From positions 1-23,013 of IMG/VR virus record IMGVR_UViG_3300023084_000139: a DNA stretch of 23,013 nt, one strand, 5' to 3'. The notes under the pieces are model-generated. The model was not told where the DNA came from and made no database searches. It saw nothing but the letters and a program-made list of their open reading frames with translations. A program made the translations under genes and the position numbers. Of this stretch, positions 5,601 to 23,013 are shown piece by piece; position 1 is the stretch's first letter; each line of letters begins with the position of its first letter. Source of the DNA: a virus.

Positions 5601-8600
5601 AAGCAAATCGCCAGGAGATCATTGACACTGGTTATGCAAACATGCTTGCATTGTATCCAAACTATGATGGAAACAATGGTAACACTTTTGGTGATAAGTG
5701 TAAGCGTGACATGGGATTCTTGATCGACGCTGTATCGCTTGACCTCATGGTTGGTGGTAACAAGTATTCCCGTAAGTTTATCTCTGAATACTTTGATGCT
5801 ACTGGACAGAACTGGATCTCTGGTGGTCTACAGGGCGAGACAACTGAAAGTATTGAAGCATTCAACCAAGCACGTGATCTCATGCGTTCTGCGGTTGCTA
5901 ACCAACTCAGTATTGTTGATGGAAGTGTTACTGCTGGAACAGCTGAGTATGGTGTAGGAACTACAATTATTCCCAACACTAATTCTGCTGCATGTACTGA
6001 TGTTCAGTCCACAATTACTACTCTGGTTGACATCATCACCACACCTATTAGTAATGGCAACTTGAATTCTCTACCAGCAGAATCTTCTTATATCTCTGGA
6101 GTAGGTGAAAGTAAGTGTCGTAGAGACATTGGTTACTTTGTCGATGCAGTTGCACTTGACCTATTCATTAATGGTAACGAGTACACTTGGAAGTTCTGTG
6201 CAGAATACTTCACTAATGCAACCACACAAATTGCTAATGGTCTTGTAGGTGAGACTACAGAGAGCAGAGCTGCATTTGCTAAAGCTGCTGAGATGATGAA
6301 GAAGGCAGTAAGCAATCAACTATATGAAAAAGATCTAACCATCACTGCAGACAATGCACCTGGATCTGCATATGGTCAGGTAACTAAGAGTTTCACTCCA
6401 CATGGTGCAACTTATGATCCAAACACTGGTGCTACGGTTCTTAGCATTGCTAATCATGGTCTGTCTGTTGGCGACTATATCACCATTGCTACTGACTCGC
6501 TAACCTTTACTTGTGATTTGGATGGCGATGCTACTCAGCATACATATCCAAGAAATACTGACCCCGCTGCGGGTCAGTACCTAGAAATTACTGCTGCTAC
6601 CACTGATACAATCACTATTAATGTTGGTGATGGTGGTAGCAACACCAGTGTTCACACATTTGTAAGTGCTGCAACTGATGCAGTTACATTTGCTGGTAAC
6701 ACTGCAAACCAATTGATTGATGCTCAGACTGCACTATGTTCTGACGTTCAGTCTGCGATTGATACTCTCAACACTATTGTTCAGGATGTATTCACTGTTG
6801 GTAACCTCAACAGTATGCCACTTGAGATCAATAAGGGATCTGCTGGTCCTGGTGAAACTAAGTGCCGTAGAGACATTGGTTACTTTATCGATGCTGTCTC
6901 TGTTGACATGTATTGTGCTGGTAACAGGCACACCAAGGAATTCACGAGACAATACTTCACCAATGCTACTACACCACTAAGCAATGGTCTTGTAGGTGAA
7001 GAAGCAGAGAGCATCACTGCATTCTCTGCTGCTATCTCGGAGATGAGAAAGGCAGTATACAATGCTCTATACTACAAGGATCTGACTGTAACTGAAGGTG
7101 CTTCCGAGTATGGTGGTGCTGGTGGTAATGTCGATAGACAAGATGCTGCAGCATGTTCTGATGTTCAGAGCGCAATTCAAACACTGGGAGATTTGGTTAC
7201 CGATGCAATTGCTGCTGGTAACATTAATGGTGGAATCTGGAACCAACCAGACAATGAAGGTTCCTTCAAGACTGGCGAAAGCAAGTGCCGTAGAGACATT
7301 GGTCACGTTGTTGATGCTATCGCACAGGATCTCTGGTTTGGTGGTAACGAGTATACCATCGCAGCAACTAAAGAATACTTCGCACAGAATGCTCTCATCT
7401 CTAACGGTGTAGACAATGAAGTTGGACCTGCTATCACCGCATTCAAGCGTGCTGCAGATCTAATGAACCGTGCAGTAAACAACCAATACTATGATAGAGA
7501 TCTAACCATTACTCTTGATCAGGTTGGAGATCCTCCATTTGTATCAGACATTCATGCTGATGCATATAATCTTGTTCTTGACAATAAAGAGTTTATTGCT
7601 GAAGAAGCATATCAGCGTATGCTCTCTGCATATCCACTCTACACTCCTTCTGCTGGTAACACTAAGCAGGATTGCCTAGATGACGTTTATGACGTTCTAG
7701 AAGAGGTAATGTGGGATGTTAAGTTTGGAGGTAACTCTAAGACATATGATGCTGCTAAGGTTTATGTTACTAACATTTTCAATGGTGATGCAGTAGAAAC
7801 ATTCATCGATGCTGAGCGTGATGAAGCTGCTAAGGTCTTCACTGAAGTCAAGAACATTGCAATCCAAGTTCTAAGAAACGAAACGGTAACTGTTTCTGCT
7901 GGTAACACTCTAACTCAGACCAAGGATCTTACCATCGTTGATGACTGGGATATTGATGAGTTGCTACCTACTTGTGGTTCTGCTGCAGGTGCTGTTGATA
8001 CTCTACTTGGTATCATCATTCAGGCAATTGGAAATGATGGTGGCGTTGGTACGCTAACTGCAGAGAGAACAACTGGTGCTACTGCGGATCCTGCATATGA
8101 TACCGCAGTCAACATCACTGCTGCTACTGCAGAAACAATCACTATCAATGTAGGAACCTCTACTCACCTCTATCCACATACATTCTCCAGAGCAACTGCT
8201 GGTGCAGTAGTATCTGGTGGTAACTATCTACACAGATTTGTAAGTGCTGCTGCTGGTGCAGTCAACGTTGTTAATGGTCCTCAACTAACTCCAACCAACG
8301 CAACTTACAATGCAGTAACTGGTGACTTTGTGATGTACTTCGGTGCAGCACACGGTGTAACTACCAGCGATCAACTATCTCTTGACGACAACTCCTTCAC
8401 ATTCAAGTGTGACATGGACGACTTCACTGCCGACCATGTATATCCACGTCCTGGATCTGATTCCATCGTCGGACAGAATGTCAATCCAACTGCTGTAACT
8501 GACTACAGCATTACAATTAATGTTGGTGCATCTCCTCTAGTTGAATGGGATGTAACTGCTGCAACTTATGATCCTGCATCTGGTGATGTTGTAATCACTA

Positions 8601-11600
8601 TTGGTGCTCACAGTCTACCTGTTGGCACTAAGGTCAAGGTGAAGACTGAATCCATTGCCTTCAAGTGTGGTAAGGACAACTATAAGACTGAGCACGCATA
8701 TCCTCGTGCTGCAAGAGCATATCAACCTTCTGTATATACAGTAGGTAACTGCTCGGATGTTCTAGCAACAATCGATACTCTAACTGGTATCCTTTGTGAT
8801 GCACTTCTCGCTGGTAATCTAGACGATCTCCCACCACTATCGAATGGTCTCTGGGATTGTGCAAACGTTAGATCTTCTATTGAGAACCTATTTGATATCC
8901 TTACCGATGCAATCGGTACAGGTTCTCTCGATGGTCTACCTGTACTCAACAAAGGTGACTTCACAATCAATAACGAAGCATCGAAGTGCTTCCGTGACGT
9001 TTCCTACATCGTTGACGCTGTTGTCAATGACTTGAGACTTGGTGGTAACATCAACAGCATTCAGGCAGGTGAAGCATACTATGTTGGTAACAGCCTCACC
9101 TACATCGATGGTGAGAAGACTGAAACCCTAGATGCATGGGATTATGTCGGACAGTTGGCAACTGCTGCCATGAGAAACTTCGACTTCCTTGCATATAATT
9201 GCTCTACTACTGCTGGTTCTGACATCGTAGATGTTGGTGACACTCGTGGTATTGTAATTGGCATGTCCGTTGCTGAGTATGATGCAGCATCTTATAATTG
9301 GGCAGAGCAACAAGCTCTTGAAGGTCTACTTAACTTCTCTGATAATGGTACAATTACGCAAGTTACTTCTACCATTCCTGCAGGAGCTTACGTTAGAGAG
9401 ATTCTAAACGGTACTCAAATCAGACTAGGAACTATTGGTTCTAGACTAGAAGATGGTAGCCCAGTAAATGCTGTTCAGACCAACAATGGTAACATCAACC
9501 TACACTTCAGACTAGAGAAAGGTGCATGGGCAGACACTGATGTAAACACTGTCTTGGTTGGACCTGAAGATGGATGGCAGCAGGGTGGTGTAGAAGTCTT
9601 CCCAGATGTTATCGCTGATAGTCTAACATCTCAGAATTACAGAGAGTGTGAGGGAACCGCAGATGCAATCGAATCCCTAGTTGGTGTCATTACTACCATT
9701 ATTAATAGTGGTCTTGGCACAGTTGTTAGACAAGAGCAGACTGTAGACACAACTGTTCTTTCTAAGAGAGCAACTGTATTCACCATTGATACTGGTGGTG
9801 GTGCATCTAACCCACACAACTGGGAGACAGGTACACCTGTTAGACTGGTTCCACGTCCACGTTTCGATCCAGTTACAGGTAAGTATGTTGATGTTGACAA
9901 GCGTCTTGTCAGATTACCTAATGGTTTCGAGACAAACAGAACCTACTATGTAATCGCTCCTGGTAGATTCACTTCTCCTGAAAACTATGCTAACACTTCC
10001 TTCTGGAATAGTGAAGCAACTACAACACTGATGCTCGCAACTTCTCCTGAGAATGCAGCAGCAGGTACATACATCTATGCTTCTGAGACTGATAGCATCG
10101 ACAGAGATGTTGAGATTGACATCTATCAGTTTATTCTAGATGAGTCCTATGATCTACATGCATACACATCTTCTCTTGAGTCTTCTGATAGAATCAGAAC
10201 AGAAGTAGCACACGTCTTTGATATTCCTGTCGATGGTGTAACACCTCAGAAGGTATTCATCAGAGCAGCAGAAGGTGGTAACTTGCCACTCATCTCCCAG
10301 AGTTACATTAATGACCCTCTGGTCGCTGTAACTGATCCTCTCGATGGTAACTTTGGTAGAATCAATCCAAATGTTGAGTTCTTCGTTCGCTATCAGTCTC
10401 CTAAGATCATTTCGATTCACAAGACTGCAGCAGATGCAAGAGCAAATGTACAACCAATCTCGTTTGCTGCTGGACAAAGTGGTGTAACATTTGATGTCTT
10501 CGCTAACAAGCGTAGAACACCAATGAAATTTGACCCATCATTCACTGATGGATCTACTTCTACTGGTAAGTGGTACGTCAACTGTAGAGATGACTCTGCT
10601 CAACCACAGTCTGTCCTCAACGACAACATCTTCTGGAGAATCAGTCAGTCTGATTACTCTGACAGACAGAGATCCACAGACATGTGGTACGAGCGTCTGG
10701 AGGATAATAGAGACAAGGATGATAGAACATACAAACTACGTTATGTCATTCCTTCTTACTTGGAGAACGCAAGAGATCCTATCAATGGATTTGTTCTCAA
10801 GACAAGAACTGACGACACCCGTAAACTTGTACCTCAGAAGATTGTACTGAAGCCTGTGACTGGCACAGTATATGGTGCTCGCTTTGAGAACAGACAGAAC
10901 CCAGGTGAATTTATCGGTCAAACTGCATCACAACTTGCAGGATTTGATCAAGATTCTCTCTATGATCCATTCAGAAAAGAAGTTGGTGTTGAGTATCGTG
11001 AGTTTGCTAAGTTTGCATCTGGTGTTCAGGCAACTATTCAGTCTGCTCGTTACATCCCAGATGCTATCGATGAGACAATTGAGTATCTAGAACTCACGGT
11101 CTTTGACCATGCTATCGATACCAGAAACTTCCCTGGACTAAGAAACGAAGTTCTCACCACAGTTAAGATTACTGCTCCTCAGGGTGGTGCATTCGTAACT
11201 GATAAAGCAGATAATCAAGCAGGTGACACTAACTATGCTAGCTTTACTGGAAACACTTCTGGTAACTGCAATATCCATGCATACTACACTGTCAATGGTG
11301 AGCATTATCTCATCATCAAGGGTATCCGCAATGGCACTCTAGAGTACAGTGAGTTTGCTAACACCAGATTCTCTCAGACGCAAGGCAGCATCACTGTATT
11401 TGCTGACATGCTTGAGGATCAGGACATGGGCAAATCGCTACCTCTGAAGACTCATATCAGAAAAAATTTCCCAGAGTATTATTACAAGCAAAACGGCGCT
11501 AACGTTTATACCATCACCCCTGGTGATAGAATCACTGATAGTGCTGGTGTTGAATACTATGTTGATAGCGTCAAAGATGCAGGCATTATCGAAGATACAT

Positions 11601-14600
11601 TCTACATCTTCGGTTATGAAACCCTACAGAGACGTATCGCTGGTCAGCAAGATGGTATCTACTATCTAACTTGCCTACGTGGTAACGTTTCTCCATTCCC
11701 AACAGGTGCTGGAGTCAGCAATAACTTCCGTAGATTTAAGTTCTCTCAGCCAGTCAGTAAACTCTATCCTCTCAACTATAAGAACGATCCTCTCTGGTTC
11801 CAAAACAATGGTACATCTAATGAAGAGAAGAACTACTACGCAGGTCTAATCGATCCACCTTCTACATTCTCTGCTGCAGACAACTACGTTCACGGTCTAG
11901 TTACCGTCAACGACTTCAAGAACTCTGTAACAAGAGAAGGTATTGATGATCTACTCAAGCAGAGTGCATTCATCGAGAATTCCTATGAAGCAGGTAGCAA
12001 TCAAATCAGAGCACAAAGAGGTAACGCTACCGCTGGTTCTGAGGATCGCTTGATTCCTATCGCTGGTGACAGCACAGTTGTTGTTGATCAGCGTTACTAC
12101 GTTGAACTCCGTAGACCATCTATCGCACGTGCTGGTAACCACACGTTTGAATACCTTGGTTTCGGTCCTGGTAACTACTCCACAGGTCTCCCAGCGCGTC
12201 AGGAAGTCGTCCTAACTCCTGAAGAGGACTTCTATGCCCAAAGTAAGAAACAGGACGCTGGTATCGTCTTCTACACGGGTATCAACTCTCAGGGTGATCT
12301 CTATATCGGTAACAGAAGAATTAATGCTATTACTGGTGAAGAGACATTCATCGATGCTGCAGTTCTTGCAGATGATGGAGACGAGGATGATACCGTAGGC
12401 GGTCTCGTTACCACTTTCGATACACCTGTAACTTTCAACCAGAATATCACGGTTGTTGGTGGTGATGGACAACTAGTCAACAACTTCGAGTCTCCTGTAA
12501 CTATCTCTGTTCAGGATGATGACTTTACTCAACAGCGTGATGCTCTAATCATCCGTTCTAACGTATCTTCTGTCGATCCTGTAACTCAGTTGCAGCAAGA
12601 CGAGGGTCTAGACAGAACTGCATGGGCACCACCAACTGAGGGTGACATCAGACTCAGCAAGAACAGCATCAGATCTGCTATCTTCCAGTTCAATGCTAGA
12701 GGAAATGGTCAGAGTTACATGTTCCAGACGCACACCGTTGCTGGTGTAGCATCTAACGCAACTCCTAACCAGTCTCCACTAATTTCTGCTGGCGGAACAA
12801 GAATCGCAGCATCTCAATATATCACCTATGGTGGTGTACTACCTGCTCCTGGTGATGTTCTGTTCAAGGGCGAGGAAGTTGGTAAGAATGGTTCCATTGC
12901 ATGGATACTTGCAAACTACTTCCAGCAGATTGCAAACAACAGCATTGACAATATCGTCTTCGACGGTAGCAATGTTGTTAAACTTGAGTTCAGAGACTTC
13001 AATAGCGGTGTTGCACTTTCCAACTCTGACATTGGTATTACTTCTACCTCTCAGATTAGAGTCAGCAACTTCTACTATGATCCTAGACTGAACCTAACCT
13101 GGACAGTATATGCTACGAAGCCTGGTGATCCATTCGATCCTGCTGATAACTACTGCTACTTCCAAGTAATCGATCAGATTCCTCAGGATACTCAGGCATG
13201 GGAAGACATCATTGCAGGAACTGCACAAGGTGCTGACGCTCCTACCATCGAGTTCTCTAACTCTAACTTCAAGGAAGTTGGTGTTATTGGTGGTGAAGCA
13301 CTCAGAACTGAGACTGAGACCATTGGTGATTACAAACTGGGTGTCAACACTATTGCAAGATCTACTCACGATGCATATAGAAATGCATTCGTTGAGAACC
13401 TCAACACCGATCCTCGTGCAAACCTAGACGTTGTTGGTAATGCATACATCAGCGGTCGTAAGACTCCTGATTATCTCTCCCACACCAACTTCGCAGATCG
13501 TGATAAGAACAGAATCCCAGATGCACTGCTAGTTGGTGGTGACAGTTCTGCTGTTGCTGATTATGCAACTCTCCGTGTTTCTACTGAGACTGCAGCGATC
13601 ACTGAGTCTGGTAGAGGCAACAATGAAGGCAAGGTTGGTATCAATGCAACTGATGCTGAACTAGACAGAGCACTGGTTGTCAAGGGTGACTCCAGATTCT
13701 CTGAAGACGCAAGATTCGAGCGTGACATCGAAGTCAACGGTGATGGATCTGTTGCTGAGATCAGAACATCCGAGACGGTTGGTACATTCAACCTAATCAC
13801 GGATGATACATTCACTGGTACAATCAATCTTGGTAACAAGGTAGAGAACATTAACATCGGTAACACTACCGAAGAAGATCAGTTCATCAGAATTGGTCAG
13901 ACATCTCTACACAGTAACATCTTCCTAGGTGTAACTCCAGATGATCGTCCTTCTGACAATGCTCTAACCATCAGTAAGATTGAAATTGGTGGTGCATATA
14001 ACAATAACGAATCTCAGTCGTTCACCAGAATCAAAACTAAGTCCTTCAAGGTTGATGGTGACTTCCAACTAGGTTCGAGAAGAACAATTAATGATACTGT
14101 AACACTTTCTACAACTGCTGGTACAGTCAACTTCTTCTCTAACTCTGGTTCTGCATCGATCATCAACTTCGGTCTAAATGCATCTGAGATCAATATCGCT
14201 GGTCAGGGTGGTACAACTACCATTAATAACCAGTTAGAAGTTATTGCTTCTGCTACATTCAACGGTAACATCACACTCTGTGGTGGTGTTGCAGCGTTCT
14301 CCTTCACTGGTGGTCGTGGTAAACTAGGTTCTCCAATCACTGCACATGACGATGGTATCCTAAGCGATACTCTCTTCAATAAGAACATTGACATCCTCAA
14401 CGTTCTTGTCAAACTAACCACCGAAGAAGGATATAACGAGGTTGACACCGCAGGTAGTGGTAATTGGGGTGGTGCTGGATTCCAAGCAGCACGTGGAAGT
14501 ATTGGTGGCACACCTGTTGTTGAACCTCAGGATCTTCCTGCTCTAACTGGTGATGAGTATTATCTACCACTTCTCAACGCACCTAACAAACTGAATGGTG

Positions 14601-17017
14601 ATCCATACTTCGTTGAGAATGACTACATCATTATCAATAGCGCAGAGAGTGCTAGTGGACATCCTGAAATTGTTCAGGTTGTTGAACTAACCAGAACATC
14701 TGTTGCTCCATACTACATTAAGGTTCGTCGTCAACCACTCGGAACATACACTGCTGTTCTAACTAACCATCCTGACAGAACACCAATCTATAAGGTAAAT
14801 GTTCAGTTTGATGCTACTTGGACTGAGCAACCATTGAACAGCAATGTTCCTGGTTCTCAAGACAATGTATATCTTGCAGAATTTGGTGGTAGCCTAACCA
14901 ATAATGATTATGTAATCATCGATCGTGAAGATACAACCAGCGATGGAATCTTCGATCAGGGTGAGGTTATCAAGGTTCTTGCTCCTCTATCTCAGGAAGT
15001 TCAGAAGTTCAGAATCTCCAAGGATTGTAATGATGCTGACGGTGATGTATTTGTTGTAGATTCTACTACTGGTGATGTTACCATTGGTGGTGCAACAACA
15101 ATCAACAACACACTAACAGTCAAGGGTGGTTGTGGAACAATTCAGACAGTTCAATTCACTGCTGATTGTACCGCTGGTGAATTCAGATTAACTAATGTTG
15201 TTATTACAACTCCTGGTAAGTCACTCTCCGACATCAATATTGGTGATGTTGTTGATAACATCCTTAATGAGTCTTCAATCGAATTCCTCTATGATACTGA
15301 GGTAATTGCAATTGACACTAGCAACGCTGTTGTCGAACTCAGCAAAGCAGTTGTAGGTTCTACCTCTGCTAGCTTCACTGGCGAGTTTAGAAGAAACGAA
15401 AAAGTTCTCCTAACCAATGGTAATGAAGTTCCTACATTCAGAGTAGACACTTGCACTGGCACAACTCACATCGGCAACCATTACGGTAGAATTGAGGTTG
15501 AGTTTGCTCATCAGGGTCAACAGGGATCTATCACAAATAATGCTGCTCTAGTACCTAACTTTGATTCTGGTAACATTGCAAGAGCATACAGCTACTGGTT
15601 CGATCCTCAAATTGTTTCTGATGGTGGTCCTGACACTACAATTAGAGTTGGTGTTACTGGATCTAGCGGTCAAATTCAAGTTCCTGTACAGAGTCTTGGT
15701 GTTGGAACTGGTAAGTTTGCAGTTGATGATATCGTATTTGTTGGTGATGCAACGTCAGCATCAACAGGCATTGGCGATTTCATCATCGGTAAAGTTACTC
15801 AGGTTATCGAAGATGTAGCAAATCCAACTGTCGTGATTGCTGACGTTGGTGATAGTCTTGGAACCAATAATACATTCGTAATTGGTGACAGTGCATTTGC
15901 TGTTGGTAATGTAGTCAGAAGACTAGTCAAGCATCGTGAAGTTGCAAATGTCATTGATTTTGAAGAGAGAACAAGAATTAATGCTGGTGCATCTAGCACT
16001 TATCTCTCCCTCATCCTTGACAGAGGATACATTGTACAACAGAAACTAGACTACCTCAACTGGGTTGTACTTACAGACTCCCAGGGCAGATCTCTTGCCT
16101 GGACAGCAGTCAAGGGTAGAATGTTTGGTGTCGTTCATTCTGCAACAATGAATGAGCAGCGCACTGACGGCGGCATTGCATACAGAACTGGTGATCTAAA
16201 TGTCTCTGGTGGACTAACTCTAACAGGTGGCAACTTCACAATTTATGATTCCATCAATCAGACACAACTCTTTAGAGTTGTCAACGATGACGGTCACGCC
16301 GATCACCAAGGTCTGATCACTTGGGACTGTGGTGTTGTTGCTCGTGGTGACTTCTACCTGTTCACCGCACAGGATCCTGAGAACGTCATTACAAGCCCAG
16401 ACTCCACAACTCCATCCTTCTTCGTTGATAACCTTGGCAATGTAGGTGCTAAAACTACGCTTACCGTTACTGGTAATGCTAGTGCAACACCATCTCCAGT
16501 TGTTGAGCAACTATCTATCCAGAACCTAGGTATCAATGGTACTAAGAAGTTCACTGTCAATCAAGATAACTCTCTTGACTCCTTCGGTATTAATAACTTC
16601 TATTCGTCCAGTGGCGGTAGACATACTAGATATCTCTCTGCTGCATCTGCTGAAGAAGAACTGACCCTAACGCCAAACATTGTTTACTGTGTCAATGTTC
16701 AGGCATCTTCTACACTGATCCTAACTCTACCAACTTCTCCTGTAACTGGAGATACGGTTAAGATTGTTGAGGTTGGTGGTCAACTAAGTTACAACACATC
16801 TCTTGTTCTTAGAACTGCAGAATCCTCTGGAGTCAAGATTCAAGGAGATGCTACTGGTACACTACTTGGAGACAGAATTACTCCTTATCCATCTGGTGAA
16901 CTGGTTGTACAAACACCAAACGCAGCATTCACACTCGTATACCTAGGAGGAACCGATAACAATGGTCAGGTTGGAATTCCAACATCCGTACAGGGTTGGT
17001 GGCTAATGGAGGTCTGA
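2615..17017 (+). CDS. Giant virion structural protein (4800 aa), probable tail/baseplate-fibre component
   Basis: This single uninterrupted frame fills over 60% of the window. Residues 1-300 look like a pectate-lyase-type beta-helix: S-P-V-T-P-F-K-S-I-Q-R-A near residue 40, P-G-I-H-Y, an I-P-R-G-S-S-L-V-G-Y turn and an F-x-V-T-G-G-C-Y-F-W-Q-F-T-I-K-D-G rung. Residues about 295-348 hold an H-G-Y...G-x-F-x-I...F-T-Y-E module shared with the last gene of the window. Residues about 650-2370 are an array of helical repeats with regularly placed cysteines and inserted beta modules (see repeat entries). Residues 2370-3500 are beta-rich without clear repeats. Residues about 3700-4000 have N-I-N-I-G / I-N-L-G / I-N-F-G strands typical of trimeric fibre shafts, and about 4670-4800 form a fibre-type C-terminal domain (T-L-P-T-S-P-V-T-G-D-T-V-K-I-V; ending G-W-W-L-M-E-V). 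It follows the late promoter with only a weak ribosome site and ends in tandem in-frame TGA TAA. No T4 homologue is evident by eye; very large structural proteins of this kind occur in marine T4-like phages. No enzyme motif was seen. Confidence 0.88.
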   Translation: MPLTRLDNLISSKTGKYLYVSPDDFNATDALSNRGNSPVTPFKSIQRAFLEIARYSYLPGFGNDRFDQFSIMLMPGIHYIDNRPGLLDTSGIDVFGFDQGTNAWTDDSILDLSNPDNIYWKFNNTEGGAIIPRGSSLVGYDLRRTTVRPLYVPDPATTEREIPRSAIFNVTGGCYFWQFTIKDGQTTSESPLYNTAAGTGEVYYDPTDFTKKTAPNYSHHKLTVFEYADTEELGIFYRKIAKAFSAYQPTIDDPGEFDLRVQENRIVGPLSDSRVIESLKITDNTTDSSIPASTSEIEVTTKVDHGYFQGQFVAIANTEIDDVLEGIFQIKSIDQNDARKFTYEVPFVATAIGTNITSEKVVSVDTTPALGQNAQTLAEVDSVESASPYVFNVSIRSTWGICGIWANGLKATGFKSMVIAQYTGVSLQKDDRAFIRYDEYTNTWNQASLTDAFATVPYHTKGDSYWKDEWRNFHVRASEDAFIQNVSIFAVGFADHFLMESGGDMSITNSNSNFGNTSLHAIGFKGFSFNQDKGGYITHIIPPRKVEDTQANTKKIAYYTIDIQGTLQTSGNYTKLFLGSDEISDPRTRPAATIDGYRIGAKSGDKLYVKLDPAPGTDNLFEASLEPTGFVKYVAKGSILNPSGGVINSVYADAANLIESNRRFMQEEVFGYILEKYPRLQNISYVNPGLNPAGNRYFDARNLIVANRQEIVDAAYASMLQTFPNYDGNNGNTFGDKCKRDIGLIVDAVAEDLRDGGNANIIEATRRYFDGAGNPISNGLVGEEDPAIFAFNRARDLCKKAIANLLTVQADLYDPDANSELTTYGINAGYTGSAAEEAGLTTNGVTIDVSQKQDPAGRNKDARNRIVANRDFILDAALAEISVYHPDFYIPGDSQTDDQSRLADAFRLIRRNSKEIGDKALASIALNHPDFYIPGDQQTDGTSRYADAYRLIQQNKDQIVDTALAQIAYEHRDFYFPLDSQTDERSRFADAYYLIQANRQEIIDTGYANMLALYPNYDGNNGNTFGDKCKRDMGFLIDAVSLDLMVGGNKYSRKFISEYFDATGQNWISGGLQGETTESIEAFNQARDLMRSAVANQLSIVDGSVTAGTAEYGVGTTIIPNTNSAACTDVQSTITTLVDIITTPISNGNLNSLPAESSYISGVGESKCRRDIGYFVDAVALDLFINGNEYTWKFCAEYFTNATTQIANGLVGETTESRAAFAKAAEMMKKAVSNQLYEKDLTITADNAPGSAYGQVTKSFTPHGATYDPNTGATVLSIANHGLSVGDYITIATDSLTFTCDLDGDATQHTYPRNTDPAAGQYLEITAATTDTITINVGDGGSNTSVHTFVSAATDAVTFAGNTANQLIDAQTALCSDVQSAIDTLNTIVQDVFTVGNLNSMPLEINKGSAGPGETKCRRDIGYFIDAVSVDMYCAGNRHTKEFTRQYFTNATTPLSNGLVGEEAESITAFSAAISEMRKAVYNALYYKDLTVTEGASEYGGAGGNVDRQDAAACSDVQSAIQTLGDLVTDAIAAGNINGGIWNQPDNEGSFKTGESKCRRDIGHVVDAIAQDLWFGGNEYTIAATKEYFAQNALISNGVDNEVGPAITAFKRAADLMNRAVNNQYYDRDLTITLDQVGDPPFVSDIHADAYNLVLDNKEFIAEEAYQRMLSAYPLYTPSAGNTKQDCLDDVYDVLEEVMWDVKFGGNSKTYDAAKVYVTNIFNGDAVETFIDAERDEAAKVFTEVKNIAIQVLRNETVTVSAGNTLTQTKDLTIVDDWDIDELLPTCGSAAGAVDTLLGIIIQAIGNDGGVGTLTAERTTGATADPAYDTAVNITAATAETITINVGTSTHLYPHTFSRATAGAVVSGGNYLHRFVSAAAGAVNVVNGPQLTPTNATYNAVTGDFVMYFGAAHGVTTSDQLSLDDNSFTFKCDMDDFTADHVYPRPGSDSIVGQNVNPTAVTDYSITINVGASPLVEWDVTAATYDPASGDVVITIGAHSLPVGTKVKVKTESIAFKCGKDNYKTEHAYPRAARAYQPSVYTVGNCSDVLATIDTLTGILCDALLAGNLDDLPPLSNGLWDCANVRSSIENLFDILTDAIGTGSLDGLPVLNKGDFTINNEASKCFRDVSYIVDAVVNDLRLGGNINSIQAGEAYYVGNSLTYIDGEKTETLDAWDYVGQLATAAMRNFDFLAYNCSTTAGSDIVDVGDTRGIVIGMSVAEYDAASYNWAEQQALEGLLNFSDNGTITQVTSTIPAGAYVREILNGTQIRLGTIGSRLEDGSPVNAVQTNNGNINLHFRLEKGAWADTDVNTVLVGPEDGWQQGGVEVFPDVIADSLTSQNYRECEGTADAIESLVGVITTIINSGLGTVVRQEQTVDTTVLSKRATVFTIDTGGGASNPHNWETGTPVRLVPRPRFDPVTGKYVDVDKRLVRLPNGFETNRTYYVIAPGRFTSPENYANTSFWNSEATTTLMLATSPENAAAGTYIYASETDSIDRDVEIDIYQFILDESYDLHAYTSSLESSDRIRTEVAHVFDIPVDGVTPQKVFIRAAEGGNLPLISQSYINDPLVAVTDPLDGNFGRINPNVEFFVRYQSPKIISIHKTAADARANVQPISFAAGQSGVTFDVFANKRRTPMKFDPSFTDGSTSTGKWYVNCRDDSAQPQSVLNDNIFWRISQSDYSDRQRSTDMWYERLEDNRDKDDRTYKLRYVIPSYLENARDPINGFVLKTRTDDTRKLVPQKIVLKPVTGTVYGARFENRQNPGEFIGQTASQLAGFDQDSLYDPFRKEVGVEYREFAKFASGVQATIQSARYIPDAIDETIEYLELTVFDHAIDTRNFPGLRNEVLTTVKITAPQGGAFVTDKADNQAGDTNYASFTGNTSGNCNIHAYYTVNGEHYLIIKGIRNGTLEYSEFANTRFSQTQGSITVFADMLEDQDMGKSLPLKTHIRKNFPEYYYKQNGANVYTITPGDRITDSAGVEYYVDSVKDAGIIEDTFYIFGYETLQRRIAGQQDGIYYLTCLRGNVSPFPTGAGVSNNFRRFKFSQPVSKLYPLNYKNDPLWFQNNGTSNEEKNYYAGLIDPPSTFSAADNYVHGLVTVNDFKNSVTREGIDDLLKQSAFIENSYEAGSNQIRAQRGNATAGSEDRLIPIAGDSTVVVDQRYYVELRRPSIARAGNHTFEYLGFGPGNYSTGLPARQEVVLTPEEDFYAQSKKQDAGIVFYTGINSQGDLYIGNRRINAITGEETFIDAAVLADDGDEDDTVGGLVTTFDTPVTFNQNITVVGGDGQLVNNFESPVTISVQDDDFTQQRDALIIRSNVSSVDPVTQLQQDEGLDRTAWAPPTEGDIRLSKNSIRSAIFQFNARGNGQSYMFQTHTVAGVASNATPNQSPLISAGGTRIAASQYITYGGVLPAPGDVLFKGEEVGKNGSIAWILANYFQQIANNSIDNIVFDGSNVVKLEFRDFNSGVALSNSDIGITSTSQIRVSNFYYDPRLNLTWTVYATKPGDPFDPADNYCYFQVIDQIPQDTQAWEDIIAGTAQGADAPTIEFSNSNFKEVGVIGGEALRTETETIGDYKLGVNTIARSTHDAYRNAFVENLNTDPRANLDVVGNAYISGRKTPDYLSHTNFADRDKNRIPDALLVGGDSSAVADYATLRVSTETAAITESGRGNNEGKVGINATDAELDRALVVKGDSRFSEDARFERDIEVNGDGSVAEIRTSETVGTFNLITDDTFTGTINLGNKVENINIGNTTEEDQFIRIGQTSLHSNIFLGVTPDDRPSDNALTISKIEIGGAYNNNESQSFTRIKTKSFKVDGDFQLGSRRTINDTVTLSTTAGTVNFFSNSGSASIINFGLNASEINIAGQGGTTTINNQLEVIASATFNGNITLCGGVAAFSFTGGRGKLGSPITAHDDGILSDTLFNKNIDILNVLVKLTTEEGYNEVDTAGSGNWGGAGFQAARGSIGGTPVVEPQDLPALTGDEYYLPLLNAPNKLNGDPYFVENDYIIINSAESASGHPEIVQVVELTRTSVAPYYIKVRRQPLGTYTAVLTNHPDRTPIYKVNVQFDATWTEQPLNSNVPGSQDNVYLAEFGGSLTNNDYVIIDREDTTSDGIFDQGEVIKVLAPLSQEVQKFRISKDCNDADGDVFVVDSTTGDVTIGGATTINNTLTVKGGCGTIQTVQFTADCTAGEFRLTNVVITTPGKSLSDINIGDVVDNILNESSIEFLYDTEVIAIDTSNAVVELSKAVVGSTSASFTGEFRRNEKVLLTNGNEVPTFRVDTCTGTTHIGNHYGRIEVEFAHQGQQGSITNNAALVPNFDSGNIARAYSYWFDPQIVSDGGPDTTIRVGVTGSSGQIQVPVQSLGVGTGKFAVDDIVFVGDATSASTGIGDFIIGKVTQVIEDVANPTVVIADVGDSLGTNNTFVIGDSAFAVGNVVRRLVKHREVANVIDFEERTRINAGASSTYLSLILDRGYIVQQKLDYLNWVVLTDSQGRSLAWTAVKGRMFGVVHSATMNEQRTDGGIAYRTGDLNVSGGLTLTGGNFTIYDSINQTQLFRVVNDDGHADHQGLITWDCGVVARGDFYLFTAQDPENVITSPDSTTPSFFVDNLGNVGAKTTLTVTGNASATPSPVVEQLSIQNLGINGTKKFTVNQDNSLDSFGINNFYSSSGGRHTRYLSAASAEEELTLTPNIVYCVNVQASSTLILTLPTSPVTGDTVKIVEVGGQLSYNTSLVLRTAESSGVKIQGDATGTLLGDRITPYPSGELVVQTPNAAFTLVYLGGTDNNGQVGIPTSVQGWWLMEV
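3481..3670 (+). other. HGY/FTYE beta module in the giant protein
   Basis: Residues about 295-348 read T-T-K-V-D-H-G-Y-F-Q-G-Q-F-V-A-I-A, then D-V-L-E-G-I-F-Q-I and K-F-T-Y-E-V-P. A module with the same landmarks (N-H-G-Y...G-K-T-V-E-I-A-G...D-A-F-N-G-A-F-V-I...T-F-T-Y-E-A-P) lies at residues about 659-709 of the third collar protein (21571-21720). This suggests a small beta-sandwich building block reused between virion proteins of the same operon. Confidence 0.55.
4787..5709 (+). repeat. 50-bp direct repeat, copies at 4787-4836 and 5660-5709
   Basis: The two copies are identical except for one base (C at 4813, T at 5686) and lie 873 bp (291 codons) apart in the same frame. They encode N-Y-D-G-N-N-G-N-T-F-G-D-K-C-K-R-D, the entry into the first and second Cys modules. 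The flanking DNA is much more diverged, including synonymous sites, so this stretch looks recently copied or homogenised by recombination. Confidence 0.85.
5219..5605 (+). repeat. Three tandem 43-residue repeats in the giant protein
   Basis: Residues 869-911, 912-954 and 955-997 repeat with an exact 43-residue (129-bp) period: an N-x-x-x-I-x-D-x-A-L-A-x-I helix, [HR]-D-F-Y-[IF]-P-x-D-x-Q-T-D-x-x-S-R, and an A-D-A-[FY]-x-L-I helix. A partial fourth copy (N-R-Q-E-I-I-D-T-G-Y-A) leads into the second Cys module, and similar D-A-x-N-L-I-x-x-N-R helices precede module 1 (4567-4790) and module 6 (7555-7660). The array extends the linker between modules 1 and 2, explaining their wide spacing. Confidence 0.85.
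5993..9715 (+). repeat. Seven C-S-D-V-Q-S-type short helices in the giant protein
   Basis: A second Cys motif, C-[ST]-D-V-Q-S-[AT]-I-x-T-L-x-x-[IL]-[VI]-x-x-x-I-x-x-G-N-[LI]-N, recurs with Cys at residues 1127, 1375, 1514, 1787, 2046, 2082 and 2345; the copies at 1787 and 2345 are degenerate. Four copies stand 41-44 residues before a C-[KR]-R-D module (1127/1168, 1375/1417, 1514/1558, 2082/2125), so the basic unit is a two-cysteine helical pair. Confidence 0.8.
6389..8740 (+). repeat. Three A-T-Y-[DN]-x beta modules inserted in the helical array
   Basis: Modules starting at residues about 1265, 1896 and 1983 share A-T-Y-[DN]-x-x-[TS]-G-x-x-V-x-x-[IF]-x-x-H-x-[LV], a D/E-S-x-x-F-x-C core, x-x-[EDQ]-H-x-Y-P-R, and (copies 1 and 2) a following T-x-x-x-I-T-I-N-V-G strand. 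The T-I-T-I-N-V-G tail also occurs alone near 8140. They are beta-rich and lie between the helical Cys units. The first lengthens the distance between modules 3 and 4 from about 140 to 249 residues. Confidence 0.75.
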
Positions 17018-17020
17018 TAA

Positions 17021-18271
17021 ATGGCAAGTTACAATAGAATCAAGGCACTGAAAGCGGTCCCAATCGGGACCATAGTGCCTTGGACTGGTTCGTCCAGTAC
17101 ATCACAGTTGCTAGATGAAGCAATTCCAACTGGATATCTTGTGTGCAGAGGTCAAACTGTACGTGCTATTGATTACCCTTTACTAGCACAGTTACTTGGA
17201 AATGCATATGGTCCTTTTCAAGAACCTGGAGGTCCACCAGTTGGTATTCAAAACTCATATCCAAATTATACTGAGGATGATGTTTTTGTTTTACCATCAT
17301 TAAATAATACCTCTTTGGTTGACCTTGAGGGGTCTAGACTTGATCCTCTAGATCAATTTGTTGTCGGAGAATACATTACGGAAAACGGTAGTGATGCTGC
17401 CCCGTTGAGTAATGTTGTGTCATATGTTGATGTTAACTTCCAAGTAGAACCAGATAGTTTGTTGTCTGGTAAACTTACTGGTGTTACTTTACAGGAACCA
17501 GCATACTTTGATACTTATAGAACTATTCCTAGAAAACTAGGTGTTGACCATACTCCTCCTCATACTCACCCTAGACCTACAGGTGAGAATGCAGATCCAT
17601 ATCCATCTGCACAACCATCAGGTAGATACATCGCATTCTTTATTCCTGGTAACTATGTTACACAGGATGATCAGTGGACTACTGCTGACTCTGTAAACGC
17701 AGAAGATCAGAATGAGATTGCAGATAGATTTGAACCTGGCACAGTCAATCTGACATGGTATGACCCAACAAACCAGAGTTTGCCTACCATGGACACATTC
17801 CATGATTTTACGGCAGAGTCTCCAGTCTTACCTGCTAGCAGAAGTGCAAACAATCCAAGAAATATTTCCGCATTTGCACAAACATTAAATTCATATTCTG
17901 ACGATTATAGTTGTCTACCATCTCAACAGGCTCCTGCCGTTGCAAATCAATTCCCTCCTCCTGGTAACTATTCTGGTCTTTTGAATTTTTACCCAGGTGT
18001 GGATGTTTCTGCTGCAAGAAATCAAGGAACTTATCCTGTTACATTGAACCACAACACTGACTCGTGGAACTCTACTGCATTGCAATCTCATAATCACTTC
18101 ACAATTGACCTTAGCATGACGCTTGGTCAGATGCGTGTTCCTGGAACTATTCTCATAAATAATATGACGACAGGAACTATTGCACCTGTTAGTGTTGACA
18201 AGGCTTTGAGTGTCCAAGTCAATCCTAATACACCTTCGTTAACCACATTAGTTGTAATAAGGGCATTCTGA
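17021..18271 (+). CDS. Tail-collar domain protein 1 (416 aa)
   Basis: The ATG is 3 nt after the giant gene's tandem stops and has an excellent ribosome site (GGAGG at 17008-17012, 8 nt spacing). The N-terminal 70 residues carry the phage tail collar signature: V-P-I-G-T-I-V-P-W, then P-T-G-Y-L-V-C-R-G (Cys at 42), D-Y-P-L-L-A-Q-L-L-G-N-A-Y-G, and F-V-L-P-S-L near residue 90. Histidine pairs H181/H183 (P-P-H-T-H-P-R-P) and H357/H359 (S-H-N-H-F) resemble the HxH metal sites of T4 gp12 and gp37 fibre tips. The C-terminus (L-V-V-I-R-A-F) is a plausible end strand. The protein is probably a baseplate or short-tail-fibre-like receptor-binding or fibre-attachment component. It overlaps the next gene by 1 nt. 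Confidence 0.8.
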   Translation: MASYNRIKALKAVPIGTIVPWTGSSSTSQLLDEAIPTGYLVCRGQTVRAIDYPLLAQLLGNAYGPFQEPGGPPVGIQNSYPNYTEDDVFVLPSLNNTSLVDLEGSRLDPLDQFVVGEYITENGSDAAPLSNVVSYVDVNFQVEPDSLLSGKLTGVTLQEPAYFDTYRTIPRKLGVDHTPPHTHPRPTGENADPYPSAQPSGRYIAFFIPGNYVTQDDQWTTADSVNAEDQNEIADRFEPGTVNLTWYDPTNQSLPTMDTFHDFTAESPVLPASRSANNPRNISAFAQTLNSYSDDYSCLPSQQAPAVANQFPPPGNYSGLLNFYPGVDVSAARNQGTYPVTLNHNTDSWNSTALQSHNHFTIDLSMTLGQMRVPGTILINNMTTGTIAPVSVDKALSVQVNPNTPSLTTLVVIRAF

Positions 18272-19596
18272 TGGCAGTATTCTACGGAAAAGAAAAATCA
18301 AAAGTCGGAACGAATACTGGTACAATTATTCATTGGGCAAGACAGTTACCTACAAATGATCCAGAGGATCAAACACGTAAGGAATTACTTCCCTCTGGAT
18401 ATTTGCGTTGTGATGGTACAGTTTATTCTGCAGAAATTTTTCCAGAACTTGCTACTATCTTAGGTACTGGTCAAAATTGTAGATTTAGAAAACCAACTCA
18501 AACATTACAAGATAATCAATTTCAAGTTCCAGACTATGGATCAAAGAAATTGAGAGCATCTTCTGGATCAAACTTAGGTGATGAGATTGATCTTCGTATT
18601 GAAGATGATGATGGAGAAGAAATTGTCAAATCTGGTGTAGGATTGGAAGTTCAAAGTAACATCGGTACTACATACGAGATTCAATATCAAGGTAATTTCT
18701 TTCTTCCATCGCAGCAAATTGTTATCACAGGTCAACCTGGATTTACAAGAGCAACAGGAAACTATACTGAAGTTACTGAGGTATTGCAAACAGCATTTTT
18801 ACCACATGCTCACTTCCACGATGGAACTAGAACAAGACAAGCGTCTTCATTAGGCAACGAATATAATAATATTGGTAGAAACTTTTATTCTCGCAAATCT
18901 ACACTTTGCATTCAACCTTGGTATTATAATACTTACCAACCTCTCTGTATGCTAGCAGCGGGTAGACTTAGAACTGCGAATATTACTCAAGCATCCGATC
19001 CATATGGTGGTGGTGGTGGATTATTTGGTAGATGTGTTAGATACTATTATGGTGCATGTTTTACTGGTTGTGACTTTTCTGGAGCAAGATATGAGTGCTT
19101 GATTCCAGATGGAACTAGTTGTGGATATCCACTGTGGAGTGGACAAACTTCTGGATGTGCTGGTGGTGGTGGTGGTCCTGAAACACTTAATTGTGGTACT
19201 GTTCAGTATACTGGAACATTATATTCTGTTTGCGAGTGTAATGGATTTGCTGGCGTTGACCCAGGTGATGCCAGACCACAAAGAGGTCCTCAACAATTAA
19301 CACCAAACTATTCTGACCCAACTGTTCCATGGGACTCTGTTAAAACTGATGATAGAGAGGGATTCTCTGCTATCTCAAACGTTACAACTGAAGTAGAAAA
19401 CTTCGGTGATGAAGCAATACACAGGCACTTCGTTAATTTCAGTGCAGATGAGCATACATATGTTGTGAACACAACACCAGTGTTCATTCCTGCTGCTCCC
19501 CTTGTCTCTACCATTCAAATTCAAGTCAATACAGAGAACAAGGCAGATCAATTTATTCAGCCTTACATCGTACAAGAGTTTCTAATTAAATTCTAA
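18271..19596 (+). CDS. Tail-collar-like protein 2 with cysteine-rich insert (441 aa)
   Basis: The start overlaps the previous stop by 1 nt (TGATG), with AAGGG 7 nt upstream as ribosome site. The N-terminus repeats the collar pattern: N-T-G-T-I-I-H-W, L-P-S-G-Y-L-R-C-D-G (Cys at 47), F-P-E-L-A-T-I-L-G, and F-Q-V-P-D-Y-G near residue 90. H179/H181/H183 (P-H-A-H-F-H) and H384/H386 (I-H-R-H-F) are HxH-type motifs. Residues 249-325 contain Gly runs and nine cysteines, absent from collar protein 1. The C-terminus ends Q-P-Y-I-V-Q-E-F-L-I-K-F, a likely beta strand. It is probably a virion tail protein, paralogous to its neighbours at least in the collar core. The exact place in the virion is unknown. 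Confidence 0.75.
   Translation: MAVFYGKEKSKVGTNTGTIIHWARQLPTNDPEDQTRKELLPSGYLRCDGTVYSAEIFPELATILGTGQNCRFRKPTQTLQDNQFQVPDYGSKKLRASSGSNLGDEIDLRIEDDDGEEIVKSGVGLEVQSNIGTTYEIQYQGNFFLPSQQIVITGQPGFTRATGNYTEVTEVLQTAFLPHAHFHDGTRTRQASSLGNEYNNIGRNFYSRKSTLCIQPWYYNTYQPLCMLAAGRLRTANITQASDPYGGGGGLFGRCVRYYYGACFTGCDFSGARYECLIPDGTSCGYPLWSGQTSGCAGGGGGPETLNCGTVQYTGTLYSVCECNGFAGVDPGDARPQRGPQQLTPNYSDPTVPWDSVKTDDREGFSAISNVTTEVENFGDEAIHRHFVNFSADEHTYVVNTTPVFIPAAPLVSTIQIQVNTENKADQFIQPYIVQEFLIKF
19027..19240 (+). other. Nine-cysteine segment within collar protein 2
   Basis: Between C255 and C323 (69 residues) there are nine cysteines, in the contexts G-R-C-V-R, G-A-C-F-T-G-C-D, Y-E-C-L, T-S-C-G, S-G-C-A, L-N-C-G and V-C-E-C-N, flanked and interrupted by runs of five glycines. 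The rest of the protein is far poorer in Cys. The spacing recalls small disulfide-stabilised or metal-binding domains, but it matches no family I can name. Confidence 0.7.
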
Positions 19597-22500
19597 TGAC
19601 AGCCTCTTATAGAAATAAATTCGGTAACTATAAGCAGGAGCATGAGGCAAACTATGCTCCATGTGGATCTATATTCCCTGTCTTAGTTGATAGTTTTTCT
19701 GGTAAACCCACTATCCAAGCAGGTGCTGGATCTGGATTAGAACCACCAGAACATGCATATCAAGATTACTTATACTGTGATGGATCTGTTCTCAATATTA
19801 GAGACTATCCTCAATTATATAATGTTCTGAGAAATTCATATGGTGGATCAACATCAGTAACAAAGTTGAGTCCATCTGTTGCTGGTGGTATAAAAAGATT
19901 TCTTAGAGGTGATGCTGTAGGATTGTCTGCAACAGATTGGTATGCTGTTATAAATCAAGATCCTAGTGTTCAGGCTACAGTAAAACTACCATATCCATAT
20001 GGAGTTAGTTTTAGATTTTTCGATAATACAGGCAATACACCACCTGGAAATGGACTAGGGAATCTAAATTCTAATGACTGGGAATATGATACATTTTATG
20101 GCACTGAAGCACCAACACAAGCAGAACTAACAGCAATTGCCCCAGGTGCCACGGAATTTGTATATAAATTGAAGTTTCCTGATGATGTAGACACTAGCAC
20201 TTTCAGTGGAACACAGTCATATTTCTTTGGTAACTCTGATCACCCTGCTACCATATTCAATAAAGGTTTCACAATCAGAGATTATCCATATAATGTTGGA
20301 ACATTTACTTTACCAGACTATAGAGATAGAATTGTAGTAGGATTTGGCGGAGTCGATGGTGATGGATCTCCAACGGTTGAGAATGCTCTAGTTAATGAGG
20401 TTGGACAACTTGGTGGTAGTTGGTATATCAGTAAGGATCAACTTCTCGATGGTGGTGTATTCTTTACTGTAGGTGATGTAAGAACGAGAGGATATTCGGA
20501 TATTGCTGCTGATGTTTTTACATATCTTACAGGTAGTGTAAGTTATAGAGTAGGACCACTATCTGATCATATCTTTACTAGACCAGCAGAGCACAACCAT
20601 AAGATTCTATCTTGTAAACCAGATGAACTAAATGACAATGAAGTTGGTGCTATCAACTGGGATGAGTTTGCTGTCATGTACAGTGAAACTAGAGCAAATA
20701 TTGCATTGTTTGAACCAGCAACATCTGGTGGTGTAGCATTAGGTCACTCTCATGGTCTGACAAGAGATAGATTGAATGATCCAAATGCTGCTACCTATGG
20801 TAACACTGCTGGCATTGGTGGACTAGATCCTAACACACCAGCAAACGTATTGTATGATGTTAGTGATAACATCATTGCTTCTACAGCAGTATATGATGAT
20901 ATTTCACTGGAACCACATGGACCTGGAACAGGTGAATGGGAAGGATTTGATAAACCAGGCATTGCACAGAGTAATAGATATCTAGCATTTGGATATAAAA
21001 ATACTGCTAGTATTAATGACCCTGGCTCTTTGAAAGTGACTAGAAGTGTAACATACACTATGGATTTCACTGGTTACACAGAGTTTTTCATCTATGCTAT
21101 TGCAGGAAATGATAGTAATGGTGGTGAGAGACCTAATAACCCAGAAGAGGGTTTGGTAGTAGAATTTTCAGATGGATCGGAAGTTGAAATTATTCCATCT
21201 GCTAGAAAATTTAATAATGACAATAACATTGAGAGCGGGTTTGAGCAGTATGATGCTGTTTATGCTTATTGGACAGCAAGCACTATCACTATTCCCACGG
21301 CACTACAGAACCAACCAAATCAAACTGTAAAAATTAAACAAATACTTAGATCATCTGACCCTGGGGATGGTGAGGGATCTGGTGGTGTAGAGCAAGGTTC
21401 TGGTGTTCCTGCTGGAAATAATAATGCTAACGATATGTTTGGCATTCAAGCAATTGGATTGCGTGGTGGTATTACTACTGATCCACCAGATCCAGATGGT
21501 GAATATCCAATCACAGGATCTACGTATTTCAATGTACTCAGCATTACATATGATTCTGCAAACAATTGGTGCTTAGTTACAACCAATGAGAATCATGGTT
21601 ACCAAGCAGGTAAGACAGTTGAAATTGCTGGTGCTATTCCTGATGCTTTCAACGGTGCATTTGTAATCCAAGATAATAATCAACTTAGTGGATCTACATT
21701 TACATATGAAGCACCAGCAGGTGTTCCTGCATCTGCATCTGGAAGTGCAATCACTGTTAGATTGGCTCCTGGATATTTTGAGGATGTTGTAACAACACCC
21801 GAACCAAGAATGTATGTTGTTGATGACAACACAGGTATTGGTGGTAAAACTGAGGTATTTGTTATTCCTGGCACTGGTGTTTCATTTGGTTTTGAAGAAC
21901 AGGTGGGAGAAGGTGTCATCAATACCGATCCAATCCCTGCAGAGACAGGTGAAGTCACACAACTACAAGTAACATTAGATGCTCCTGGTGGAGGTGGTGG
22001 TGGAACATTTTCTGATGGCGGTGATGCTGGATATGCATATGCATCTTTCCAATTAGACGGATCATTCTACACAATCTACGCATATGGTGGAGAAGGTGGA
22101 CAAGCAGGTGACAGTGGTGGTGCAGGTGGTGCTGGAGGATCATTCTTAATTCCTCAGGAACTTATTGACAATCCACTGTTTTCATATACTACAAATGCAG
22201 GATCTGACGGTGCTGCTGGAAGTGGAACATCACCTGGAAGTGGTGCTGGACCACAATTCCAAGGTGCTGCATCTACTAGATCTGGTGGTAATGGTGCATC
22301 AGAAGTATTCCAAACCACAACTGGTGACGCTGATTTTGTCTTACAGACATCTACAACATACACACCACCAGCAACATACCCAGGAGAAGCATCTAGAATC
22401 CACGAACTAAGAGTCGTTGGTGGAGGCGGCGGTGGCGGTAATGGTAACGCCAACTCTGGTTGTCAAGATGGTGGATATGTTGGTGGTTCTGGTCCTCAGG

Positions 22501-23013
22501 ATGGATCTGCAACTGGTGGAGATGGTGGTCCTGGCGCTCTAATTAATGCAACAATTGGTGGTACTTTTGCTAACTTACAGTTTGCATTTGGTCAAGGCGG
22601 CGGCGCTGGTGTCAATGCTCGTGATGGTTATCAAAATGGTGCTGGATATGAATATGGTCCTGTATCCTCTGGTGGCGGTGGCGCTTCTAGTGGTGGTAAC
22701 GGTGGACTAGGTGCATACGGTAACGGTGCAACTGGTGGTGCTGGTGGCGGTACAACTGCTGTATTCTATGAAGGTGCTATTCCCATCATTGGTGCTGGCG
22801 GCGGTGGTGGCGGCGGCGGATCAGGTGGTGGATACAATGGCGGTAGTGCATATGATGGTTGCTATCGTGGTGGAAATAGCCAGTCTGCAAGAACTTCTTT
22901 ACACTCAAGAACATCTGCTATTGACTTCTCTGGTGGTGCTAATGGCACCCAAGGTGGTTGCACCGCTGGTGGCGGTGGTGGAGGCGGCGCTGGATGTGGT
23001 CCTAACGGTCAAT
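19596..23013 (+). CDS. Tail-collar / polyglycine adhesin-like protein 3 (at least 1139 aa, 3' end outside window)
   Basis: The ATG overlaps the previous stop (TAATG) with no strong ribosome site, so translation is probably coupled. The frame stays open to the right edge (1139 full codons). Residues 20-90 carry the collar motif, with C-G-S-I-F-P-V, Y-L-Y-C-D-G-S-V (Cys at 61) and D-Y-P-Q-L-Y-N-V-L; a second typical stretch F-T-L-P-D-Y-R-D-R-I-V-V-G-F-G-G lies at about 238-253. HxH motifs are H333/H335 (E-H-N-H-K) and H384/H386 (G-H-S-H-G). Residues 659-709 hold the HGY/FTYE module shared with the giant protein. From about residue 796 it becomes glycine-rich in two blocks (796-900 and 942-1139+) separated by a short ordinary segment. 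Polyglycine II bundles form the receptor-binding tip of S16-type gp38 adhesins, so a host-recognition role is likely but inferred. Confidence 0.78.
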   Translation, partial: MTASYRNKFGNYKQEHEANYAPCGSIFPVLVDSFSGKPTIQAGAGSGLEPPEHAYQDYLYCDGSVLNIRDYPQLYNVLRNSYGGSTSVTKLSPSVAGGIKRFLRGDAVGLSATDWYAVINQDPSVQATVKLPYPYGVSFRFFDNTGNTPPGNGLGNLNSNDWEYDTFYGTEAPTQAELTAIAPGATEFVYKLKFPDDVDTSTFSGTQSYFFGNSDHPATIFNKGFTIRDYPYNVGTFTLPDYRDRIVVGFGGVDGDGSPTVENALVNEVGQLGGSWYISKDQLLDGGVFFTVGDVRTRGYSDIAADVFTYLTGSVSYRVGPLSDHIFTRPAEHNHKILSCKPDELNDNEVGAINWDEFAVMYSETRANIALFEPATSGGVALGHSHGLTRDRLNDPNAATYGNTAGIGGLDPNTPANVLYDVSDNIIASTAVYDDISLEPHGPGTGEWEGFDKPGIAQSNRYLAFGYKNTASINDPGSLKVTRSVTYTMDFTGYTEFFIYAIAGNDSNGGERPNNPEEGLVVEFSDGSEVEIIPSARKFNNDNNIESGFEQYDAVYAYWTASTITIPTALQNQPNQTVKIKQILRSSDPGDGEGSGGVEQGSGVPAGNNNANDMFGIQAIGLRGGITTDPPDPDGEYPITGSTYFNVLSITYDSANNWCLVTTNENHGYQAGKTVEIAGAIPDAFNGAFVIQDNNQLSGSTFTYEAPAGVPASASGSAITVRLAPGYFEDVVTTPEPRMYVVDDNTGIGGKTEVFVIPGTGVSFGFEEQVGEGVINTDPIPAETGEVTQLQVTLDAPGGGGGGTFSDGGDAGYAYASFQLDGSFYTIYAYGGEGGQAGDSGGAGGAGGSFLIPQELIDNPLFSYTTNAGSDGAAGSGTSPGSGAGPQFQGAASTRSGGNGASEVFQTTTGDADFVLQTSTTYTPPATYPGEASRIHELRVVGGGGGGGNGNANSGCQDGGYVGGSGPQDGSATGGDGGPGALINATIGGTFANLQFAFGQGGGAGVNARDGYQNGAGYEYGPVSSGGGGASSGGNGGLGAYGNGATGGAGGGTTAVFYEGAIPIIGAGGGGGGGGSGGGYNGGSAYDGCYRGGNSQSARTSLHSRTSAIDFSGGANGTQGGCTAGGGGGGGAGCGPNGQ
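21981..23013 (+). repeat. Polyglycine-rich domains of collar protein 3
   Basis: Two blocks (21981-22290 and 22419 to the window edge) encode dense runs of Gly with Ala, Asn, Ser and Asp (G-G-G-G-G-T-F-S-D-G-G-D-A-G; V-V-G-G-G-G-G-G-G-N-G-N; I-G-A-G-G-G-G-G-G-G-G-S). At DNA level the tracts are mostly GGT/GGC/GGA codon mixtures. The second block also contains scattered Cys (G-C-Q-D-G, D-G-C-Y-R-G, G-G-C-T-A-G, G-C-G-P-N). Confidence 0.8.

Follow-up and report, generated by a model that had tools for sequence, protein, structure and literature searches.

Why would a tail-collar protein of a cyanophage concentrate cysteines in a single stretch, and what would that stretch do on the virion? An earlier note on this DNA had proposed an externally exposed, possibly metal- or disulfide-stabilised receptor-contact domain. 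The DNA in question, here called the window (23,013 nucleotides, positions 1 to 23,013 of IMG/VR record IMGVR_UViG_3300023084_000139), was assigned to a marine T4-like cyanophage with S-WAM2 and S-RSM4 as the best matches, to which it shows about 80% nucleotide identity, piecewise, over the first 13.8 kb. Three collar-domain genes follow one another (17021-18271, 18271-19596 and 19596 to the window end) behind a gene for a 4,800-aa fibre-like protein, and the genes are similarly arranged in S-RSM4, S-WAM2, S-PM2 and Syn1. Homology to these phages drops steeply in the collar genes, to about 27-54% at the amino acid level with almost no DNA match, as is usual for host-contact genes. The cysteine-rich stretch lies in the product of the second gene, collar protein 2.

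Other features of the window were recorded alongside. The giant fibre-like protein is encoded by a single ORF at 2615-17017; its local matches to the Sf-CH1b relative are numerous and repeated, and its counterparts in S-RSM4 and S-WAM2 are similarly large. The third collar protein (19596-23013) runs past the window end, and glycine makes up 33% of its final 350 residues, which include runs of G4-G8 and are reminiscent of polyglycine adhesins. Four tRNA genes (Leu, Thr, Ala, Asn) surround a CpeT-like gene at 723-1881, directly followed by a 2OG-Fe(II) oxygenase gene, an order identical to that of Sf-CH1b.

Collar protein 2 matches the phage tail collar domain PF07484 with an E-value of 1.1e-5 (25.7 bits, above the gathering cut-off of 24), and the same domain is matched by all 29 members of the relatives' set examined (29/29; best E 1.6e-8). 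A full-length match to the cyanophage virion protein family PHROG 31602 (aa 1-441, E 2.9e-76) and 30-35% identity to virion proteins of S-RSM4 and S-WAM2 further support its identity. Its parts are as follows.

18271..19596, plus strand: tail-collar or short-tail-fibre-type virion protein, collar protein 2, 441 aa (ORF)
18385..18468, plus strand: core of the Pfam collar domain, aa 39-66 (PF07484 match)
18805..18819, plus strand: first HxH motif, H179-A-H-F-H183, with H179 and H181 invariant
18907..19239, plus strand: eleven-cysteine stretch from C213 to C323 (cysteine positions and conservation)
18916..19326, plus strand: tip domain predicted to fold independently, about aa 216-352 (AF2 of the full length and of aa 194-364 alone)
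19006..19020, plus strand: first GGGGG run, aa 246-250, not conserved in the alignment of relatives
19162..19176, plus strand: second GGGGG run, aa 298-302, within the cysteine cluster, not conserved in the alignment of relatives
19420..19428, plus strand: second HxH motif, H384-R-H386, with H384 and H386 invariant
19477..19593, plus strand: C-terminal segment, aa 403-441, with the conserved end PYIVQEFLIKF common to cysteine-poor orthologues

The tip thus comprises about 190 aa between two HxH motifs (H179, H384) and contains 11 cysteines at aa 213-323, while H179, H181, H384 and H386 are invariant in 61 aligned sequences and in the cysteine-poor orthologues.

The earlier note had singled out nine cysteines within 69 residues, and these were recovered at positions 255, 263, 267, 276, 284, 296, 308, 321 and 323, inside the interval 18997-19245 (aa 243-325 of the 441-aa ORF). 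At the cysteine frequency of the other window proteins (0.78%), at least nine cysteines in one stretch of 69 residues have a probability of 4e-9; shuffling collar protein 2 itself produced such a cluster in 21 of 20,000 trials, and the other window proteins checked reach at most 4 cysteines per 69 aa. Collar protein 1 of the window, with 2 cysteines in total, has no counterpart, as had been stated. The nine-cysteine unit is therefore real, yet incomplete, since the domain also includes the near-invariant C213 and C226. C47 and C70 are not part of the tip, as they also occur in the collar part of cysteine-poor relatives. The description of the cluster as bounded by polyglycine runs does not hold: the run at aa 298-302 lies between C296 and C308, and most homologues have no such runs. 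A role of polyglycine as a functional flank was accordingly rejected.

AF2 modeling of the full-length monomer was confident only for about aa 216-352 and part of the collar, with pLDDT values of about 30 in the flanks. Modeled alone, aa 194-364 reach a mean pLDDT of 75.7 and a pTM of 0.65, with helices followed mostly by strands, suggesting that the tip folds independently. The collar part (aa 34-93) weakly matches the T4 gp12 collar 1ocy (Z 2.8, rmsd 5.5, 51 residues) as well as the A-1(L) cyanophage tail fibre, and its match to 8kec is likewise weak (Z 2.4, rmsd 3.5 over 58). Searching the PDB with the tip model, using Foldseek and VIA-align, gave no match with E <4 or Z >=2, which is not proof of a new fold. 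At the sequence level, three different members of the tip family used as queries had no match among 50,697 phage records, and comparison of the tip with Pfam, PHROGs and PDB sequences yielded nothing above chance. None of the known cysteine-rich Pfam families matched the window tip; two other members match the Furin-like family (best E 0.0055), probably an effect of composition. With the full model, significant matches in BFVD were confined to cyanophage virion proteins. The full alignment found relatives among 84,980 prokaryote genomes on two metagenome-assembled contigs, filed as Pelagibacterales and Rhodobiaceae, which are probably mis-binned phage DNA. Literature searches found no cysteine-rich cyanophage collar proteins among the papers covered.

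Conservation of the cysteines was assessed in 65 distinct intact relatives from uncultured phages, obtained by related-locus searches of IMG/VR (35, then 80 loci), together with the window, S-RSM4 and S-WAM2 (n=68). C226, C263 and C276 are present in 68/68 sequences, C267 in 67/68 and C213 in 66/68, and all five are kept in each of the 65 IMG/VR relatives. The tip contains exactly 11 cysteines in 43 of the 68 sequences and 12 in 16. Mean pairwise identity is 0.77 for the cysteine columns and 0.42 for the remaining tip, and the median dN/dS over 127 pairs is 0.28 for the tip compared with 0.10 for the flanks. Conservation among homologues, which the earlier note had made decisive for its reading, is thus what we found. 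It is hard to reconcile with cysteines that are incidental, the result of composition drift or free buried residues with no structural role. The S-WAM2 homologue, with only 4 cysteines between the HxH motifs, fits such an explanation, but we regard it as very improbable because the cluster is far above chance and the cysteines are far better conserved than the remaining diverging tip across 66 sequences.

The pattern of change also bears on what the cysteines do. C284 and C308 are both missing in one clade of six distinct sequences (L073/L077/L079/L080/L083/L089), in which the other nine cysteines are kept. A tree built from the flanks places both losses in one event (support 94/93), so the joint loss is suggestive, and not proof, of a C284-C308 disulfide. 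Elsewhere, positions shift while the count is held at 11: 296 moves to 293/295, 321 to 319, and 323 to 326/329 or later. A second cysteine layout, which adds a cysteine at the place equivalent to aa 382, immediately ahead of the second HxH motif, was seen in some relatives (L093, L095, L097, L102, L103, L109 and L112, and L105, L108, L110, L111 and L116). Between L058 and L078, identity is 95% in the collar protein flanks but falls to 70% in the tips, which points to tip exchange or rapid divergence.

The cysteines might instead bind metal, zinc or iron-sulfur, making the tip a metal-stabilised domain. The collar protein folds in a reducing cytoplasm, the total of 11 is odd, and five cysteines (213, 226, 263, 267, 276) stay invariant while others shift, as ligands might. 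Nonetheless, we consider metal binding unlikely. The spacings from 255 to 323 are 8, 4, 9, 8, 12, 12, 13 and 2, and no CxxC pair occurs in the window tip, which therefore departs from the pattern of zinc ribbons, rubredoxins and ferredoxins; no Pfam metal domain matches the tip either. Paired loss and shifting positions at a near-constant total are better accommodated by a disulfide scaffold than by a canonical zinc or iron-sulfur site. The tip cysteines would most likely form about five intrachain disulfides, of which C284-C308 is the best supported, and the odd number leaves one cysteine that is unpaired, inter-chain, or in a metal site.

Comparison with cultured phages sets the domain in context. 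The T4-GC 736 tail collar protein of S-PM2, Syn1, ACG-2014h, S-H9-1, Sf-CH1b and Sf-FR1 (287-299 aa) occupies the same gene position as collar protein 2 and resembles it in the N-terminal 184 aa, both HxH motifs and the C-terminus. However, these six orthologues have only 46-54 residues and no cysteine between the HxH motifs (taken at 187 and 237 in S-PM2), whereas collar protein 2 has about 200 residues with 11 cysteines. The cysteine-rich domain is therefore a lineage-specific insert or replacement. SRSM4_212 of S-RSM4, 35% identical to collar protein 2 over the full length, is intermediate: the first half of its tip is homologous (hhalign E 5.9e-6) and keeps C226, C263, C267 and C276, but it has 7 cysteines between the HxH motifs and the second half of the tip does not align. 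In S-WAM2, a phage otherwise close to the window, the tip is of similar length and has 4 cysteines, so that cysteines are not essential to this type of protein. The orthologues also bear on the glutaredoxin gene upstream, which the earlier note had mentioned as possibly coincidental. A glutaredoxin gene occupies the equivalent position in Sf-CH1b, whose orthologue of collar protein 2 is cysteine-poor, and a link to the cysteines was therefore rejected; in the window, the gene is a fragment (3-179) cut by the window edge and lacking the active-site part, and its proximity looks coincidental.

Collar protein 1 has its own cysteine history in some phages. In ACG-2014h (L118:1893-2996; C189, 197, 201 and 205) and S-H9-1 (L119:1890-2999), it carries a four-cysteine cluster between two HxH motifs, absent from the collar proteins 1 of S-PM2, Syn1, S-RSM4 and S-WAM2. 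This cluster, which differs from that of collar protein 2 but lies at the corresponding place of a paralogue, may mean that tips with cysteines evolved on more than one occasion.

The position of the tip can be compared with known fibres. In T4 gp37, D11 with the stem and tip is inserted in the collar-fold domain D10, the tip binds LPS/OmpC and HxH motifs bind iron (PMC6957217); in gp37, gp12 and R pyocin fibres and spikes, the metal that HxH holds on the trimer axis is iron or zinc (PMC6116203). Along collar protein 2, the collar core at aa 39-66 is followed by the tip and the conserved C-terminus, an order taken from the sequence layout as the monomer model is too poor for the fold. By analogy with D10 of gp37 (PMC6957217), aa 403-441 may be the closing half of the collar domain, and the tip apparently sits within a split collar. 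The two proteins would share the split collar, HxH motifs where the chain enters and leaves the tip, and a tip that, in gp37, contacts the host (PMC6957217). They differ in that the tip of collar protein 2 has about 190 aa with 11 cysteines and predicted helices and strands, compared with a 28-residue subdomain in gp37, and in having two HxH motifs as opposed to seven iron sites; no sequence match between them was found. The likeness to T4 gp12 consists of the collar fold, at the weak level given above, and the HxH metal motif (PMC6116203). The proposal of an exposed receptor-contact domain stands insofar as the tip sits where the receptor tips of collar fibres sit; for the disulfides, the metal and the receptor contact themselves, our reading is by inference. 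We know of no cysteine-rich tip in gp12.

Disulfide-rich knots had also been called rare in phage virion proteins, which needs qualifying given the extensive virion networks of the Agrobacterium phages Milano and 7-7-1 (PMC10811340, PMC12796354). These networks set a precedent for virion disulfides among myophages, and a short tail fibre is involved: that of Milano, like the baseplate, is disulfide cross-linked (PMC10811340). This precedent, like the odd number of cysteines, fits a purely structural tip that bridges the baseplate or fibre network through inter-chain or inter-protein disulfides and makes no host contact. Such a bridge nevertheless seems rather improbable, as the dN/dS of the tip is nearly three times the flank value, its location between the HxH motifs matches that of receptor tips, and partners are few, given that the remaining fibre and collar proteins encoded in the window have little cysteine (0.5-0.7%). 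Moreover, the disulfides of Milano and 7-7-1 are proteome-wide and inter-protein, whereas in the window phage only one domain of a single protein is enriched in cysteine: cysteine content is 0.78% in the other window proteins and 2.1% in Milano structural proteins, so there is no Milano-like enrichment.

Taken together, these data seem to favor a collar fibre whose tip is exposed on the outside, braced by disulfides and in contact with the receptor, and whose two HxH motifs probably bind metal, a reading we hold to be reasonably probable. Collar protein 2 would be a collar-type short tail fibre or adhesin, probably trimeric, of a Synechococcus-type T4-like cyanophage. As judged from the order of motifs, its chain would run, as in gp37, from the collar through the first HxH into the compact eleven-cysteine tip (about 135-190 residues), and back through the second HxH to close the collar. 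The tip would be the outward part that contacts the host. Its disulfides would hold a fast-evolving binding surface, forming either in oxic sea water once the cell has lysed or at a late stage of assembly. Each HxH, with no involvement of the cysteines, probably binds one metal ion on the trimer axis. More speculatively, the tip might be an undescribed disulfide-rich receptor-binding fold whose conserved odd cysteine makes the collar fibre redox-sensitive. We give this little credence; if true, thiol exchange on the surface of a host that produces oxygen would be required for attachment or for triggering of the baseplate.

Collar fibres with a variable tip are ordinary in kind. What is unusual is a conserved 11-cysteine domain for which we found relatives only in this cyanophage gene and which is nearly missing from isolated phages. 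Little is known about the receptors of marine T4-like cyanophages or the domains that bind them. The tip is a well-delimited, foldable candidate, and proteins with and without it can be clearly compared: the short orthologues of S-PM2 and Syn1, the partial tip of S-RSM4, and the full tip, so far only in uncultured phages. This comparison allows direct tests of what the tip does and of what disulfides contribute to a phage produced in a reducing cytoplasm.
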